In this document: positions 3,573 to 12,835 of the stretch, piece by piece
Layout of the letters: each line of letters opens with the position of its first letter
Numbering within the stretch: position 1 is the stretch's first letter
Virus record (IMG/VR): IMGVR_UViG_3300044712_000298
Span: 1-20,861 of that record
From: a virus
Reading direction: 5' to 3' (one strand)
DNA: 20,861 nt
Made by a program: the position numbers and the translations under genes
Notes under the pieces: generated by a model
Databases searched by the model: none
Told to the model about the DNA's origin: nothing
The model's input: only the letters and a program-made list of their open reading frames with translations

Positions 3573-3917
3573 TCATGCTCCTTTAATTTCAGATAAAACA
3601 TCACGCACACCGCTTGGTGCATCGTCCCATGAATCACTGCGACCATAGTCACCGCGACTCATTCTCATACGCTCTTTGTCACGGAAGGCAGGTTCAATCT
3701 TCCACCATGCCAATGACGCGTCTTTGTACTCCTGCCAAATAGGGTTAGGCTCAAACAAAGGATGGTGCTCTCCGTCACCTTTGTATGAGTCCAAGTAGTC
3801 CCTGTGTGGTATCCACTCGTACTTCATGTTCGTACTCGTTCGCACCAGTTTTACTCTGTCGCGCGCTCGGATAAATCTATCGTACGCCTGCTTTTGTTCT
3901 TTTGTTAACTCAATCAT
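3573..3917 (-). CDS. 114-aa hypothetical protein following the sigma gene
   Basis: Starts at ATG 3917 with AGGAGG 6 nt upstream, inside the last codons of the sigma-like gene (8-bp overlap), so the two are probably translationally coupled. The protein begins MIELTKEQKQAYDRFIRARD, a basic helix. The middle is rich in aromatic residues and histidine (YEWIPHRDYL, PLFEPNPIWQEY, WWKIEP) and it ends in DVLSEIKGA. I do not recognise the fold. Coupling to a sigma factor makes a role in phage transcription, for example a co-activator like T4 gp33, an idea to test; the sequence itself does not show it. Confidence 0.7.
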   Translation of the reverse strand: MIELTKEQKQAYDRFIRARDRVKLVRTSTNMKYEWIPHRDYLDSYKGDGEHHPLFEPNPIWQEYKDASLAWWKIEPAFRDKERMRMSRGDYGRSDSWDDAPSGVRDVLSEIKGA

Positions 3918-4482
3918 CACTATCCTCCTGAAACTTCTCTTGGTTATATGCATCCAATGATACCGGCTCTCTCAACAAGTACCCTCTTAACTTTATTACT
4001 CGCGACTCGTGTACCTCCATGGCATCAGCCAGTTCGGTTGCACGTGGCTCACGTCCTAGCTTTTGCAACAAGATACGCTCGGTGTATTTCATCTTACGTA
4101 TCTCTTCTGCCACGTTGACTGGTATGCGAATCATGTTGCCATAGTTATCAATACCGCGTCGTACGTCCTTCATGATAAAGTTCTTTGCGTAGGTTGCAAA
4201 GCGTGCGCCGTTCTTTGGTATCCAACGCTTGCCTGCCTTCAGCAATGCCTCGTTGCCCATCGCCAACAAGTCATCCATTGGCACTGAGCCGTGATGCCAC
4301 GCAGGCGTGTCTTTAATTACCGATACAACAAAGCGTAGATTGTGCCTGACTAACTTCTCAAGTGCAAGGTCATCACCCTTTTGAATCAATGCTGATAGCC
4401 GTTCCTCCTCTTCCAATGGTAACGTTTTGATGTCGTACAGACTGCGTAAATAATCAGATAGTGCGTTTTTGTCATTTCTCAT
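3910..4482 (-). CDS. sigma-70-family factor lacking region 4
   Basis: A 190-aa RNA-polymerase sigma subunit homologue. Region 1.2-like sequence (SDYLRSLYDIKTLPLEEEE) is followed by region 2.1/2.2 (about 48-85, NLRFVVSVIK, MDDLLAMGNEALLKAG), region 2.3/2.4 (92-120, FATYAKNFIMKDVRRGI, MIRIPVN) and region 3 (126-175, LGREPRATELADAMEVHESRV, REPVSLD). It then ends; the -35-reading region 4 is absent. Compared with E. coli RpoD, the melting pair W433/W434 is N101/F102. The -12-reading Q437 and T440 are K105 and R108, so altered -10 specificity is expected. T4 gp55 is a similarly short sigma without region 4 that serves late promoters. The ATG at 4482 has only a weak upstream site. The role in late transcription is inferred. 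Confidence 0.9.
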   Translation of the reverse strand: MRNDKNALSDYLRSLYDIKTLPLEEEERLSALIQKGDDLALEKLVRHNLRFVVSVIKDTPAWHHGSVPMDDLLAMGNEALLKAGKRWIPKNGARFATYAKNFIMKDVRRGIDNYGNMIRIPVNVAEEIRKMKYTERILLQKLGREPRATELADAMEVHESRVIKLRGYLLREPVSLDAYNQEKFQEDSDD

Positions 4483-7785: not shown

Positions 7786-8208
7786 TTAAACTCCTGTGTA
7801 CTTGAATGGTGTATTGTAGTCGCCAATGCTCACGCCGTAGTAATACGCGGTGTCAAAGTAGTCAACCATGGCATCACTGCGGTCATAGTAATCAGCAGAA
7901 CGCATCGCCTCAAGCACCTTACCGATAATCTCTTTTGACTCACCTGTGAAGTGGTCTTGATACCAGTAAGGGTTAACTGTTGCGTACTCGTCACGCACCT
8001 TGAGGATGTCAGGCAGTTCTTTCCACGCCTCACTTTTAACTAAGGTCTCGTTGAAGTTACCAAGCAGGTCAATTGGTGCTGACTTGATGGTGCAACAAAT
8101 TTTTGAGTGGTGTTGCACTCTTAGACTGTACTTGATACCCAATGGCTTGAGTATCTTGTCTAGGTTAGCCTTGATAACTTTTTTCTTTTCTTGGTTCATG
8201 TATGCCAT
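7786..8208 (-). CDS. 140-aa conserved phage protein
   Basis: Starts at ATG 8208 (AAGGA about 9 nt upstream), some 30 bp downstream of the promoter-like repeat at 8237-8266. The N-terminus MAYMNQEKKKVIKANLDKIL is followed by KPLGIKYSLRVQHHSKICC and TIKSAPIDLLGNF, a combination I associate with a widespread phage early-gene family of unknown function. The C-terminus is aromatic and acidic (AMVDYFDTAYYYGVSIGDYN). The order 'helix, LRVxHHS, TIKSAPID' suggests a helix-strand-strand fold. No enzymatic motif is visible. Confidence 0.85.
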   Translation of the reverse strand: MAYMNQEKKKVIKANLDKILKPLGIKYSLRVQHHSKICCTIKSAPIDLLGNFNETLVKSEAWKELPDILKVRDEYATVNPYWYQDHFTGESKEIIGKVLEAMRSADYYDRSDAMVDYFDTAYYYGVSIGDYNTPFKYTGV

Positions 8209-8236
8209 GGTAGTAAATCCTTGTATTAGTTGTTCG

Positions 8237-8266
8237 TACTGTACTGGTTTTTCGGGTACACTTTTT
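8237..8266 (-). promoter_or_regulatory. 30-bp repeated promoter-like element, copy 1
   Basis: Minus-strand reading: AAAAAGTGTACCCG, then AAAAACCAG, then TACAGTA. Copies at 9442-9471 and 10407-10436 differ at only a few positions. TACAGT sits where a -10 box would be, about 30 bp before the ATG at 8208. No canonical -35 exists at 17 bp; the conserved GTGTACCC may replace it. The element overlaps the stop of the upstream gene. Confidence 0.6.
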
Positions 8267-8513
8267 AATCGCAGTCGGTTACCCAAGAGATGTCACACCC
8301 AAAATCAATGAGGGCTTTTCTGACATCCTGTGGCATATCATAGTAGCCATCATAATCAATCAGGACTAGCTGACCTGATTCGTTTTGCTCGAACCATAGC
8401 CCACCCTCACCGCCGTCCACAACGTCTTCAAAGCACCCATAGAGGTCTTTGGTGGCTAAGTGCACCTCAAAGTCACCGACGCGTGCCATCCTGTCAAAAT
8501 CATACGTGCTCAT
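8265..8513 (-). CDS. 82-aa acidic hypothetical protein
   Basis: Starts at ATG 8513 with GGAGGAG about 8 nt upstream. The product (MSTYDFDRMARVGDFEVHLA, then LYGCFEDVVDGGEGGLWFEQ, LVLIDYDGYYDMPQDVRKAL) alternates beta-strand and acidic loop and ends in a helix plus CDISWVTDCD. The FEV, LWFE and LVLIDYDG strands suggest a small beta-sheet domain. It belongs to the operon read before promoter copy 1. The function is unknown. Confidence 0.72.
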   Translation of the reverse strand: MSTYDFDRMARVGDFEVHLATKDLYGCFEDVVDGGEGGLWFEQNESGQLVLIDYDGYYDMPQDVRKALIDFGCDISWVTDCD

Positions 8514-9211: not shown

Positions 9212-9427
9212 TTAAAGGTTAGGGTTCAAGTAACGCTCATCTTTGTTCATGATGTTACTTAGGTCAAAAGGGATGATGACGATGTCATCGGTCTTGTACG
9301 TTGCCATTGCCTTGGCGTGTGCCTCAGCCATGTTCTTGGCAGTCAATGTGAATGTCACAAAGTTGTACCCTCCCACGACTGGGCTCTTAAATTCTACGTT
9401 TTGCTTAAGTATGTATCGTTTAGTCAT
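9212..9427 (-). CDS. 71-aa hypothetical protein
   Basis: AGGAGG lies 5 nt before ATG 9427 and promoter-like element copy 2 (9442-9471) stands immediately upstream, so this gene probably heads a transcript. The product MTKRYILKQNVEFKSPVVGG, then NFVTFTLTAKNMAEAHAKAM, follows the 'two strands then EA-type helix' plan seen elsewhere in this cluster. It ends IIPFDLSNIMNKDERYLNPN. The function is unknown. Confidence 0.75.
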   Translation of the reverse strand: MTKRYILKQNVEFKSPVVGGYNFVTFTLTAKNMAEAHAKAMATYKTDDIVIIPFDLSNIMNKDERYLNPNL

Positions 9428-9441
9428 AAATCCTCCTGTGT

Positions 9442-9471
9442 TACTTTACTGGTTTTTTGGGTACACTTTTT
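9442..9471 (-). promoter_or_regulatory. 30-bp repeated promoter-like element, copy 2
   Basis: Minus-strand reading: AAAAAGTGTACCCA, AAAAACCAG, TAAAGTA. TAAAGT is the presumed -10 box. The element begins 3 nt after ribozyme 1 and lies 15 bp before the ATG of the 71-aa gene, so it would restart transcription after the ribozyme array. Confidence 0.6.
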
Positions 9472-9473
9472 GT

Positions 9474-9525
9474 GGACTCATCAGCACACGCCTTACGTGT
9501 GGACTGGCTACTGCCAGTTTCGTCC
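9474..9525 (-). ncRNA. type II hammerhead ribozyme 1
   Basis: Minus-strand RNA, 5' to 3': stem II strand GGAC; core GAAA; stem III CTGGC, loop AGTA, GCCAG; UC; stem I CACACG, loop TAAGG, CGTGTG; core CTGATGA; stem II strand GTCC. Every invariant hammerhead core base is present and all stems pair without mismatch (4, 5 and 6 bp). The open helix is stem II, which defines type II. Predicted cleavage follows the C of UC, between positions 9502 and 9501. It starts 2 nt after the stop codon of the 72-aa gene and ends 3 nt before promoter element copy 2. Confidence 0.95.
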
Positions 9526-9527
9526 TG

Positions 9528-9746
9528 TTATTCAACCACATCCTCAATTACGATGCGGTGCACAAATACTGGCTTGGAGTACTTCTCTAGCCAGTACTGG
9601 CGATTCTCTTCGCTGATATCTCTGCGAGCAGTCATCTCGTTGATTTTGTCCTGCAACAATGCCTTAGCCTCTTCTAGGGTGTTGGCACGCCACTGGTCAG
9701 AGCCAAAGGTGTCTAAGCGGATGCAAATTGATTCGTATTTGTTCAT
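9528..9746 (-). CDS. 72-aa hypothetical protein between ribozymes 1 and 2
   Basis: Starts at ATG 9746 with GAGGA about 6 nt upstream. The product MNKYESICIRLDTFGSDQWR, then ANTLEEAKALLQDKINEMTA, ends YWLEKYSKPVFVHRIVIED. The plan is strand, LEEA helix with charged residues, then strand (VFVHRIVIE), again like the small 'EA-helix' phage proteins. The stop TAA is followed by CA and directly by ribozyme 1. The gene's own leader begins at the cleavage product of ribozyme 2 and includes a hairpin at 9760-9792. The function is unknown. Confidence 0.78.
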   Translation of the reverse strand: MNKYESICIRLDTFGSDQWRANTLEEAKALLQDKINEMTARRDISEENRQYWLEKYSKPVFVHRIVIEDVVE

Positions 9747-9759
9747 GGTAATCCTCATG

Positions 9760-9792
9760 GTTAGTAATAATCTTAAGTGAGTGTGTACTAAC
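9760..9792. repeat. 7-bp inverted repeat with 19-bp repeat copy 2
   Basis: GTTAGTA (9760-9766) pairs with TACTAAC (9786-9792) across a 19-nt loop, in the leader of the 72-aa gene. Positions 9774-9792 are the 19-bp sequence also found at 2771-2789. The hairpin would sit just upstream of the ribosome site in the mRNA downstream of ribozyme 2. Confidence 0.55.
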
Positions 9793-9806
9793 ATATTTGT
9801 CGCTTT

Positions 9807-9858
9807 GGACTCGTCAGTGAACGCCTCACGTTCAGACCATATCGCTATGGTTTCGTCC
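9807..9858 (-). ncRNA. type II hammerhead ribozyme 2
   Basis: Minus-strand RNA, 5' to 3': GGAC; GAAA; stem III CCATA, GNRA loop GCGA, TATGG; UC; stem I TGAACG, loop TGAGG, CGTTCA; core CTGACGA; GTCC. Same 52-nt length and same arm and loop sizes as the other two, but stems I and III have different, still fully paired, sequences. The one variable core base is C rather than U, which the hammerhead consensus allows. Predicted cleavage lies between 9835 and 9834. It starts 2 nt after the stop of the 64-aa gene. Confidence 0.95.
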
Positions 9859-9860
9859 TG

Positions 9861-10055
9861 TTAATAATCAAAGCCGATATAAACGACTGTCGTGCCCTTT
9901 AACTGTATGCCATTGCCCCACATATCTGTGGTGTCATCGCACTGGTAACGCTTGGTGTCACGATAGTATTCGTCACGTTGGTATACCTTATTGGCATCAG
10001 GCTTACGTTTGAAGTACTCGCCCTTTGGCAAGTCTTTAATCATTGCAGTTTGCAT
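9861..10055 (-). CDS. 64-aa conserved phage protein between ribozymes 2 and 3
   Basis: Starts at ATG 10055 with GAGGA about 6 nt upstream; an in-frame ATG four codons earlier lacks this spacing. The product MQTAMIKDLPKGEYFKRKPD, then ANKVYQRDEYYRDTKRYQCD and GTTVVYIGFDY, has the KDLPKGxYFKxKPxAxKVY signature that I associate with a family of small phage/prophage proteins. The fold looks like a small beta-barrel ending in VYIGF. Its molecular role is unknown to me. The stop TAA is followed by CA and ribozyme 2. Confidence 0.85.
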   Translation of the reverse strand: MQTAMIKDLPKGEYFKRKPDANKVYQRDEYYRDTKRYQCDDTTDMWGNGIQLKGTTVVYIGFDY

Positions 10056-10075
10056 GGTTGTCCTCATTGGTTATT

Positions 10076-10127
10076 AGACTCATCAGTAGGTGCATCACAC
10101 CTAGACCACATTGCTGTGGTTTCGTCT
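10076..10127 (-). ncRNA. type II hammerhead ribozyme 3
   Basis: Minus-strand RNA, 5' to 3': AGAC; GAAA; stem III CCACA, GNRA loop GCAA, TGTGG; UC; stem I TAGGTG, loop TGATG, CACCTA; core CTGATGA; GTCT. The G-C pair at the outer end of stem II in the other copies is an A-U pair here, a clean compensatory change. All helices pair fully. Predicted cleavage lies between 10104 and 10103. It starts 2 nt after the stop of the 79-aa gene. Confidence 0.95.
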
Positions 10128-10129
10128 TG

Positions 10130-10369
10130 TTATGTTCTTAGTGCTATGTTTAGGTTACGTAACGCCACCACCGCATCGTACATGGATGTGAATGGTTTGC
10201 GACCCATGCCGACTGTGTTGGTCTTGTTGTCACGTATCGTATACCCCACTGTCTCAATTGACCAGTTTGATTTGTCACTGTCTGATACGTATGGACATGC
10301 ACCATATATTGATGCGGTTGCACCGCTAACATGCACCCAACGTTTTGCATCTACGATTTGGTATCTCAT
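10130..10369 (-). CDS. 79-aa conserved phage protein, first gene of the ribozyme operon
   Basis: Starts at ATG 10369 with AGGAG 6 nt upstream. The product MRYQIVDAKRWVHVSGATAS, IYGACPYVSDSDKSNWSIET, then VGYTIRDNKTNTVGMGRKPF is a beta-rich protein with a 'VGYTI-DNKTNT-G-GRKPF' segment. I associate this pattern with small phage proteins of unknown function. It lies first after promoter element copy 3, preceded by a short leader hairpin. Its stop TAA is followed by CA and ribozyme 3. Confidence 0.82.
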   Translation of the reverse strand: MRYQIVDAKRWVHVSGATASIYGACPYVSDSDKSNWSIETVGYTIRDNKTNTVGMGRKPFTSMYDAVVALRNLNIALRT

Positions 10370-10388: not shown

Positions 10389-10406
10389 TGAGACGTCATT
10401 GTCTCA
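10389..10406 (-). promoter_or_regulatory. leader hairpin
   Basis: TGAGAC and GTCTCA pair over a 6-nt loop between the -10-like TATAGT (10408-10413) and the ribosome site of the 79-aa gene. Depending on the exact start of transcription it would form at or near the 5' end of the mRNA. Confidence 0.4.
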
Positions 10407-10436
10407 TACTATATTGGTTTTTTGGGTACACTTTTT
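10407..10436 (-). promoter_or_regulatory. 30-bp repeated promoter-like element, copy 3
   Basis: Minus-strand reading: AAAAAGTGTACCCA, AAAAACCAA, TATAGTA. This copy has the best -10 box (TATAGT). It heads the three-gene, three-ribozyme unit and is the outermost minus-strand promoter candidate next to the central gap. Confidence 0.6.
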
Positions 10437-10672
10437 GAGCGGGCTTGCTGGGTGACTGGCAGGAGGAGGGTGTGCTAACACTATGTTAAATGCCTCCCCC
10501 ACTCTCGCACGTGCGTACAGGCTCATGGTGACGTTTAGCAATTTGCCTATGCCTACCCCTTGCCTCATTGCCGAACGCCTTATGTGGTGCGTTGTAGCGA
10601 GCACCGCTTTGGTGCACTGTTGCACTGCAACATCCCCATGTTGGTGCATGAGCAGACTGGCTAATTGCAAAT

Positions 10673-10731
10673 GAGAATGATTATCATTACGCAGTTTGCC
10701 CCCGTTGCTAATGCGAATGATTATCATTACG
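10673..10731. promoter_or_regulatory. two Fur-box-like dyads exactly 40 bp apart
   Basis: Positions 10673-10691 and 10713-10731 share AATGATTATCATTACG. Aligned with the Fur consensus 19-mer (GATAATGATAATCATTATC) they match at 15 and 14 positions. The core AATGAT-T-ATCATT is a perfect dyad. GCAAAT/ATTTGC-type words surround both. They could be host Fur sites or iterons for a phage protein. Confidence 0.5.
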
Positions 10732-10761
10732 CAAATTGCCCGAGTAGCCTATCTGTTATAT

Positions 10762-10815: not shown

Positions 10816-10847
10816 GAGCCTCGGTGGTGTTGGGGCGTCGCGACTAT

Positions 10848-10863
10848 GTTAGTAAGTACTAAC
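10848..10863. repeat. GTTAGTA/TACTAAC palindrome
   Basis: GTTAGTA-AG-TACTAAC is a near-perfect palindrome. The same half-sites form the hairpin at 9760-9792, and a related word (GTTAGTGAGTACC) follows at about 10895, so this is a recurring motif in the genome and may be a protein-binding site. Confidence 0.5.
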
Positions 10864-10879
10864 TCACCTATATGTCAGT

Positions 10880-11416: not shown

Positions 11417-11849
11417 GAAGAGACTAAACAAAACCACAGGGCAACCATTCAAACGCGGAGATGTTCGAGAGGACGGCTTTGTATTTTTTAATTATACAAA
11501 CCAAATTAAATCCACCGGCTTCTTTATGGAGCGTTGGTTATCCCCAGAAGCATCCATTAAAGCCAAGACAAAAGACAGGACTTCCAAAAAGGCTAAGTAT
11601 CAAAGGAAGACAAATAGAAAGTCTCCCGGCTTTGATAGCTTGTCCACAGCCCAAAAAGCCACAGCTAACTTTTTGAAGAAGTTGAGTGAAGAGTGGGTGC
11701 AGTATGGAGACCTGACAATTGAGATGGTGGCTGAAGACTTGGTTGGATATCACTTAGATGCAGGCCCCCTACTAGAAGAAGCCATCCAACATGCTGGCCC
11801 TCTTGCCTTTGATGCCAAAGAGGCGTTTAGAATTTCCCTATCACTCTAA
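11415..11849 (+). CDS. 144-aa protein in terminase-small-subunit position
   Basis: First late gene. The N-terminus MKRLNKTTGQPFKRGDVRED, then GFVFFNYTNQ, carries the PFKRGDxREDGxxF signature that I associate with small phage proteins near HNH or other DNA-binding genes. A basic linker follows (about 48-70, rich in K and R), then a helical C-terminus (TAQKATANFLKKLSEEW, IEMVAEDLVGYHLDAG, LEEAIQHAGPL). Position just upstream of terL makes small terminase plausible, but no clear helix-turn-helix is visible, so this is inference. There is no Shine-Dalgarno; the late motif abuts the ATG. The stop overlaps the Hint start (TAATG). Confidence 0.75.
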   Translation: MKRLNKTTGQPFKRGDVREDGFVFFNYTNQIKSTGFFMERWLSPEASIKAKTKDRTSKKAKYQRKTNRKSPGFDSLSTAQKATANFLKKLSEEWVQYGDLTIEMVAEDLVGYHLDAGPLLEEAIQHAGPLAFDAKEAFRISLSL

Positions 11850-12835
11850 TGGCCCTGACTGCCGATACGTCCATCCCTACCCCCAGTGGTTGGGTGAACA
11901 TCAGTGACTTACAGGTTGGTGACATGGTGTTTGACCAATATGGTCAACCTGTGAAAGTTACCTTGATGCAGTCGTACATGCCACAGGAGTGTTACGAGAT
12001 TGAGTTTGATGATGGGTTGACCTTGGTTGGAGACAGGAACCTCACACTGCACCTGCAAGATGTCAAGTGGAGGAACAGGGTTGGTGAAAGTCAGCGCAGG
12101 CCAAACCGCAAGTTTCAAAGAAAGATGACGCGCCCACTCATCCAGCTAAATGCCAAAGAGTTATCCAGCGCCACGCTGGTGAACAGCGACAACAGGATGG
12201 TTTACTCTGTCCCTAATTGTTTGCCTGTCGAGTACCCAACACGTGACCTACCAGTACCGCCGTATATTTTTGGTGTTTGGTTTGGTTCACTGTCTCCAAC
12301 TGGTCGTCATTGGTTAGGAGATAAACCTATAGAGAAGATGAGAAAGATATTTAGAGGGTATGGTCACTTTATTAAGACAAGAAAACACAAGAACGGTGCT
12401 ACTATGTTTGACATCCGTCCTTCTGTACGCGATTCTTTTCTTTTTGCCGGACTGGATATTCCTACATCTCTGCCTTTTTATTATTTGGATGGGTCTGTTG
12501 CCCAACGTAGGGAGCTACTCGAAGGCCTCGTTGACAGTGGCTTCATCAAAAAGTCTGAAAAATCGAGTTTATACACGGCGAGAAACGCCAACTACAAGCT
12601 CTTACGCAAAATCCAGGGGCTAGTTGAGTCGTTGGGTGTCAAAACAACGCTACATACACCCTACGACACACCAAGTTACACGTTAAAGTTCCGTATAAAT
12701 GACAATTTTCCGATTATCTATGGAATAAATAGAAGATTTGTCACTAAAGTGCAAAAAATAACCCCCAAAAATTGTATTTTGATACAAACTGGGACGCAGT
12801 ACCTGATAGGTGAAGGCTTTATACCCGCATGTTAA
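11849..12835 (+). CDS. free-standing intein-like (Hint) protein with degenerate LAGLIDADG domain
   Basis: A 328-aa protein that reads as an intein without exteins. After Met comes intein block A starting with Ala (ALTADTSIPTPSGWVNI, DLQVGDMVFD, residues 2-29). This resembles class 3 inteins, which lack Cys1. Near the C-terminus block F retains the class 3 cysteine (KNC309, then YLIGEGF). Block B lacks its usual His and Trp (GDRNLTLHLQ). Block G, normally ending PTHN, is PAC followed by stop, so the Asn needed for C-terminal cleavage is gone. The LAGLIDADG helices are recognisable (IFGVWFGSLS 140-149, RELLEGLVDSGFI 221-233), but the catalytic acidic positions appear replaced. It overlaps the 144-aa gene by 1 bp and terL by 7 bp. 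Probably splicing-inactive; the function is unknown. Confidence 0.85.
   Translation: MALTADTSIPTPSGWVNISDLQVGDMVFDQYGQPVKVTLMQSYMPQECYEIEFDDGLTLVGDRNLTLHLQDVKWRNRVGESQRRPNRKFQRKMTRPLIQLNAKELSSATLVNSDNRMVYSVPNCLPVEYPTRDLPVPPYIFGVWFGSLSPTGRHWLGDKPIEKMRKIFRGYGHFIKTRKHKNGATMFDIRPSVRDSFLFAGLDIPTSLPFYYLDGSVAQRRELLEGLVDSGFIKKSEKSSLYTARNANYKLLRKIQGLVESLGVKTTLHTPYDTPSYTLKFRINDNFPIIYGINRRFVTKVQKITPKNCILIQTGTQYLIGEGFIPAC

Follow-up and report, generated by a model that had tools for sequence, protein, structure and literature searches.

Three type II hammerhead ribozymes in consecutive gaps of a phage operon of small genes

The window analysed here, the whole of a 20,861-nucleotide (20.9-kb) virus record for which a GenBank search returned no near-identical phage, carries three type II hammerhead ribozymes on its minus strand. 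Small genes form a leftward operon there, and its first three gaps contain one copy each, on the transcribed strand and with a single gene between neighbours. We estimate a probability of about 0.8 that these elements are functional and would cut the nascent leftward mRNA after C17 at the first three junctions of the operon, and self-cutting of the transcript appears well supported by the perfect cores, by covariation and by the similar arrays that have been published. An earlier note on this DNA had described three 52-nt minus-strand type II hammerheads in consecutive intergenic gaps, and our analysis agrees with it on coordinates, core, stems and position, and also on the three cleavage sites, which it placed correctly at the phosphodiester that follows C17. 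The same note had the transcript cut between each pair of genes; this would apply to the first three junctions but not to the rest of a leftward block of roughly 30 genes, and most of the later genes abut or overlap. It also called the operon early. A leftward operon of small genes is indeed what we find, whereas the early timing is a reading of the layout, suggested by an orientation opposite to that of the terminase and portal genes and by the small-gene content.

Each copy is 52 nt long and runs through the 3′ strand of stem II, GAAA, the stem III hairpin, UC, the stem I hairpin, CUGANGA and the 5′ strand of stem II, with 5 bp in stem III, 6 bp in stem I around a 5-nt loop and 4 bp in stem II (Table 1). 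Stems I and III are closed by loops and stem II is open in all three copies, which is the type II permutation, and the core positions C3 U4 G5 A6 N7 G8 A9, G12 A13 A14 A15.1 and U16.1 H17 are complete in 3/3. The occupied gaps measure 100, 117 and 77 nt and come after genes 9528–9743, 9861–10052 and 10130–10366, respectively. A strict descriptor, which demands an intact core and intact stems, finds only these three copies on both strands of the window and nothing in 300 first-order shuffles searched on both strands; a fourth or degenerate copy was found in the window neither by the descriptor nor, up to E=10, by our covariance model R2.

Table 1. Hammerhead copies and neighbouring features in the window, in order of leftward transcription.
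Feature	Position	Strand	Remarks
Promoter-like repeat ahead of first operon gene	10404..10441	-	
First gene of leftward operon, 78 aa	10130..10366	-	
TAA stop of gene 10130-10366	10130..10132	-	copy 3 starts 2 nt downstream (TAA-CA-AGAC)
Type II hammerhead copy 3 (first transcribed)	10076..10127	-	descriptor and R2 (71.1 bits); AGAC-GAAA-CCACA(GCAA)TGTGG-TC^TAGGTG(TGATG)CACCTA-CTGATGA-GTCT; cleavage expected 10104/10103
Gene between copies 3 and 2, 63 aa	9861..10052	-	95% identical in L008
TAA stop of gene 9861-10052	9861..9863	-	copy 2 starts 2 nt downstream (TAA-CA-GGAC)
Type II hammerhead copy 2	9807..9858	-	descriptor and R2 (72.8 bits); GGAC-GAAA-CCATA(GCGA)TATGG-TC^TGAACG(TGAGG)CGTTCA-CTGACGA-GTCC; cleavage expected 9835/9834
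Gene between copies 2 and 1, 71 aa	9528..9743	-	
TAA stop of gene 9528-9743	9528..9530	-	copy 1 starts 2 nt downstream (TAA-CA-GGAC)
Type II hammerhead copy 1	9474..9525	-	descriptor and R2 (73.9 bits); GGAC-GAAA-CTGGC(AGTA)GCCAG-TC^CACACG(TAAGG)CGTGTG-CTGATGA-GTCC; cleavage expected 9502/9501
Promoter-like repeat directly 3′ of hammerhead copy 1	9439..9476	-	
Gene downstream of copy 1, 71 aa	9212..9427	-	opens compact ribozyme-free block
Promoter-like repeat before gene 7786-8286	8234..8271	-	

A fixed-length pattern in which the core and a few letters of flanks and loops are fixed, and nearly all stem positions are free, matches at least 119 viral contig stretches; in 84,980 species genomes it matches five short metagenome-assembled contigs. 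Among the matches listed, 104 of the 107 distinct ones have all 15 pairs intact, and the unconstrained stem positions of these 107 take two to four Watson–Crick types. The covariation score is 0.845 for 44 sequences with the window included (0.171 when shuffled) and 0.809 for 27 sequences from other phages (0.168 when shuffled), the latter with 100% of cells paired. From these 27 sequences, which include no member of the window's phage family, we built R2, and it matches all three window copies with E of about 1e-17. A chance origin of the three elements is excluded, independently of the descriptor.

The earlier note had looked to the Rfam hammerhead models for confirmation, and that check failed: Rfam 15 gives no hammerhead match at E≤1 in the window, RF02276 (Hammerhead_II) included, whereas our R2 matches at 71–74 bits. 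Nor does RF02276 give a match at E≤10 in a 721-nt region or any match for the record, its threshold of 37 bits not being reached by the window copies; the sole Rfam hammerhead match in the 721-nt region is of type III (17.5 bits, E=0.92). The absent match is an error on the side of the Rfam models, a false negative. Across 12 related contigs Rfam reports 2 of 42 type II hammerheads defined by the descriptor and so badly undercounts this type in phages, whereas fragments of three Streptomyces phages give 22 Rfam matches. Because Rfam fails on the subclass to which the window copies belong, we built our own models, R1 and R2.

Rfam apparently misses the window copies because they are without the pseudoknot of the type II consensus of 2011, in which loop I pairs with the tail 3′ of stem II (PMC3088659). 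A pseudoknot of at least 4 pairs, a feature of the majority but not all of the type II hammerheads of 2011, is absent from the window copies, where loop I and the next 10 nt offer at most 1–2 contiguous Watson–Crick pairs, and we therefore reject it as their tertiary contact. In the wider set, at least 4 such pairs occur in 21/160 copies, against about 11 expected by chance. The 5-nt loop I of the subclass, on the other hand, begins with U in 81 of 82 copies and has A at position 3 in 58 and G at position 5 in 56; the base directly before stem II is an A in 141/160. We suggest that a U-N-A-N-G loop I and the A before stem II together may form the tertiary contact. The stem III loop is GNRA or UNCG in 112/143 of the subclass.

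As isolated 52-mers, the three copies are predicted to fold into the hammerhead as drawn. Given 60 nt of native flanking sequence, the energy model, which takes in neither co-transcriptional folding nor tertiary contact, prefers other pairings, with a stem II probability of 0.05–0.11 and a stem III pairing probability of 0.11 for copy 1. This folding with native flanks counts against function, as do the existence of hammerhead-free relatives and the missing pseudoknot, which was shown to be needed for fast type II cleavage in a published construct.

If the three elements are active, the leftward transcript probably begins at the promoter-like repeat at 10404–10441, and each ribozyme would fold during transcription and then cut after C17. 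The products would be nearly monocistronic mRNAs of three small genes and an uncut multigene remainder. Each upstream mRNA would end in the stem III hairpin, about 25 nt past its stop codon, and each downstream mRNA would carry the stem I hairpin at its 5′-OH end, so that every small gene could have its own mRNA lifetime without needing its own promoter and terminator. We regard such capping of ends and decoupling of genes as the most likely use of the array, at somewhat less than even odds. It follows from topology that, of the three permutations, only type II gives both new ends a hairpin. Type I hammerheads, found in relatives, leave a 3′ hairpin only, so the 5′ hairpin is not essential everywhere, and end-capping leaves unexplained why type I can substitute without it.

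The promoter-like element is 38 nt long and has three copies in the window, AAAAAGTGTACCC.AAAAACCA.TA.AGTA. Elements of the same family lie directly after a type I hammerhead in L128 and L138, and a related element occurs three times in L138; the nearest relative, L008, repeats an element of its own, a different one, at the equivalents of the first two places (10404–10441 and 9439–9476). Within each phage the copies seem to vary in concert, as sites of a phage-specific regulator or polymerase would, and a protein with sigma-70 regions 2 and 3 (3910–4482, minus strand), common to the relatives, is a candidate reader of the repeats. We also observed an operator-like 22-nt element, TAAGTTAGTACACACTCACTTA, in three copies (2771–2792, 9774–9795 and 10845–10866); L008 retains the copy at 9774, which is located in the leader that follows hammerhead copy 2. 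A tandem pair of 40-nt repeats around AATGATTATCATT at 10665–10744, between two divergent gene blocks and again present in L008, is a possible replication or regulator site. On the plus strand, an ORF at 11849–12835 with Hint and LAGLIDADG similarity overlaps the start of the terminase gene and resembles an intein-type element in the form of a separate gene. The leader segment 9744–9759 (minus strand), ACCATGAGGATTACCATG, is similar to the operator hairpin of the MS2 coat protein (Rfam RF02359, E=7.2), probably by chance, and matches of the window to SNORD91 and alpha-tmRNA stay below threshold even at their strongest and were taken as chance.

The position of the ribozymes relative to stop codons bears on a second possible use, in which the ribozymes cleave but a terminating ribosome covers the start of the ribozyme and so protects well-translated mRNA, while poorly translated mRNA is cut. 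In the fetched phage contigs, the stop of the upstream gene lies at −4 to +5 nt from the ribozyme 5′ end for 116 of 162 type II copies, and when ribozymes are allowed to slide freely within the same gap, with 12 nt kept for ribosome binding, this placement is observed in 71/113 cases against 32.8 expected. Some type I copies (7 of 21) even hold an open-frame stop codon within loop II. These placements favor gating by translation. With 22 nt reserved, however, the excess shrinks to 27/64 observed versus 15.1 expected, so compaction of phage genomes accounts for part of it, although the remainder is probably real; the stop-to-ribozyme distances are also looser in the Streptomyces phage arrays. 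One fixed distance from stop to cleavage site for both permutations was rejected because type I has two placements. We rank translation-gated cutting second, as unlikely though worth keeping in mind, behind separate mRNAs with hairpin ends.

L008, whose terminase is 95% identical to that of the window, carries type II hammerheads in four successive gaps, four in all, and the core positions are unchanged in 3/3 window and 4/4 L008 copies. At the gap before gene 9212–9427, all three helices differ between the window and L008 (GGAC/GGTC, CTGGC/CCATG and CACACG/TATACG, respectively) with core and pairing kept, and the proteins flanking this gap are 79% and 92% identical. Between the homologues of 9861–10052 and 9528–9743, L008 has an extra gene and an extra ribozyme, a cassette that is absent from the window, and its first gene, which precedes a nearly unchanged ribozyme, is a different one. 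Both differences could suggest that the hammerheads are recombination joints, short similar repeats in the gaps that let cassettes be gained, lost or swapped, with cleavage incidental. On the other hand, the helices diverge freely with compensatory changes and only core and loop positions are fixed, so the copies share little continuous identity, and a plain repeat needs neither paired helices nor an exact catalytic core nor an exchange of type I for type II. We consider this explanation improbable, more so than gating by translation. That the elements are dead relics or structural hairpins in the window phage, such as mRNA stabilisers or RNase III sites, is more improbable still: the missing pseudoknot, the unfavourable pairing in long context and the lack of an Rfam match would fit it, but relics would gather core changes where every core position is intact in the window and L008 copies, and structural hairpins would not keep CUGANGA, GAAA and UH.

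Hammerhead arrays come and go among the relatives. One or two type II copies each are found in L121, L157, L197 and L199, while many relatives with 83–88% identical terminase have no hammerheads in the available 8–10 kb upstream, which means that the function is dispensable. A search of relatives that lack hammerheads for other Rfam ribozymes gave none at gathering threshold. In L145, no ribozyme separates the homologue of gene 10130–10366 (60% identity) from the gene that comes next. No hammerhead occurs in the stretches fetched from cultured phages that encode relatives of the flanked genes (Roseobacter CRP-125, Roseobacter CRP-114 and Pseudomonas vFB297) or from terminase relatives (MW202545, Caulobacter GB2A, Brevundimonas Polewnik), and a short BLAST match inside replication genes of lambda-like phages is not a hammerhead. 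All phage contigs fetched, a set biased to the patterns used and one in which copies in one contig are not independent, together hold 127 consecutive same-strand type II pairs, of which 75 enclose exactly one predicted gene and one encloses none, and in no locus do type II copies lie on both strands.

Type I hammerheads occur in the same operon region of L128, L134, L138, L139, L140, L141, L143, L150 and L151. At one syntenic site, immediately 5′ of the promoter-like repeat, the type II copy of the window has a type I counterpart in L128 and L138. L128 and L269 share a homologous gene of about 130 aa (45% identity) with a hammerhead on either side, of type I in L128 and of type II in L269, and L329 has a type I hammerhead before its homologue of 9861–10052 (38–40% identity) and, by eye, a second one after it with a one-base departure. 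Since both permutations occur around a homologous gene, it is the cutting that is conserved, whereas neither sequence nor permutation is; selection, as this case shows, acts on the cut rather than on the sequence. Judged from these comparisons, the arrays are patchy and dispensable, and the cut, where present, appears to survive changes of both helix and permutation. We put forward, as a tentative idea that we consider more likely wrong than right, that phages may keep a general, permutation-independent system of operon processing, with one hammerhead per gap at or overlapping the upstream stop, in which helices, tertiary contacts and permutation are replaced and the cut is kept, cassettes are gained and lost together with their ribozyme, and termination tunes cutting. 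The no-pseudoknot U-N-A-N-G subclass, unseen by RNA libraries, would be a large part of such a system.

The earlier note held that a series of this kind was not a described system, which is wrong, as PMC3088659 had already described such arrays. Perreault et al. (2011; PMC3088659) reported natural type II hammerheads clustered around single phage genes and proposed mRNA processing for the clustered hammerheads; multi-hammerhead polycistronic RNAs cleave in vitro, and the triple array at A. tumefaciens ardA cleaves in vitro and in E. coli (PMC3088659). The window array resembles these in having several hammerheads on the transcribed strand that flank single genes; the A. tumefaciens ardA array and the prophage clusters of 2011 likewise have three in a row, type II included. 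The window differs in its phage and its genes, in the absence of the pseudoknot, in placing each ribozyme 2 nt after a stop codon, and in filling three successive gaps of very small genes. Relative to RF02276, the copies have the same core and the same permutation, open at stem II, but form a subclass with a U-N-A-N-G loop I, an A flanking stem II on either side and no pseudoknot. The type I hammerheads of L128, L134, L138, L140, L143 and L150, whose terminases are 86–90% identical, lie in the same operon region but are open at stem I and sometimes hold the stop codon inside loop II. A search of the open-access literature, with subscription papers outside it, returned no later account of such arrays and none of the stop codon placement or of an exchange of permutation at homologous sites. 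What our analysis adds is the wholly replaced helices at an orthologous gap, the exchange of type I and type II, the placement at stop codons, and cultured phages with arrays.

These cultured phages are the Arquatrovirinae Marav, Daudau and phiScoe1 (GenBank OQ995441, NC_054668 and OQ672741; L338, L339 and L340), Streptomyces phages with dense type II arrays in the gaps of small-gene operons. Their hammerheads are unannotated in the records, and no account of them turned up in our search of the open-access literature. Rfam alone recognises 8 copies over 5.8 kb in Marav, 8 over 11.9 kb in Daudau and 6 over 6.3 kb in phiScoe1; with one copy added by descriptor, every gap of at least 84 nt in the stretch of Marav examined holds at least one hammerhead. 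Like the window array, the Streptomyces arrays place hammerheads in consecutive gaps of a small-gene operon, one or two per gap; they differ from it in being mostly of the form that Rfam recognises, with a longer loop I, and in belonging to cultured phages. The 2011 survey left open the role of hammerheads in phages and bacteria (PMC3088659), and cultured phages with 6–9 copies in a few kb offer a place where the purpose of such arrays could be tested.
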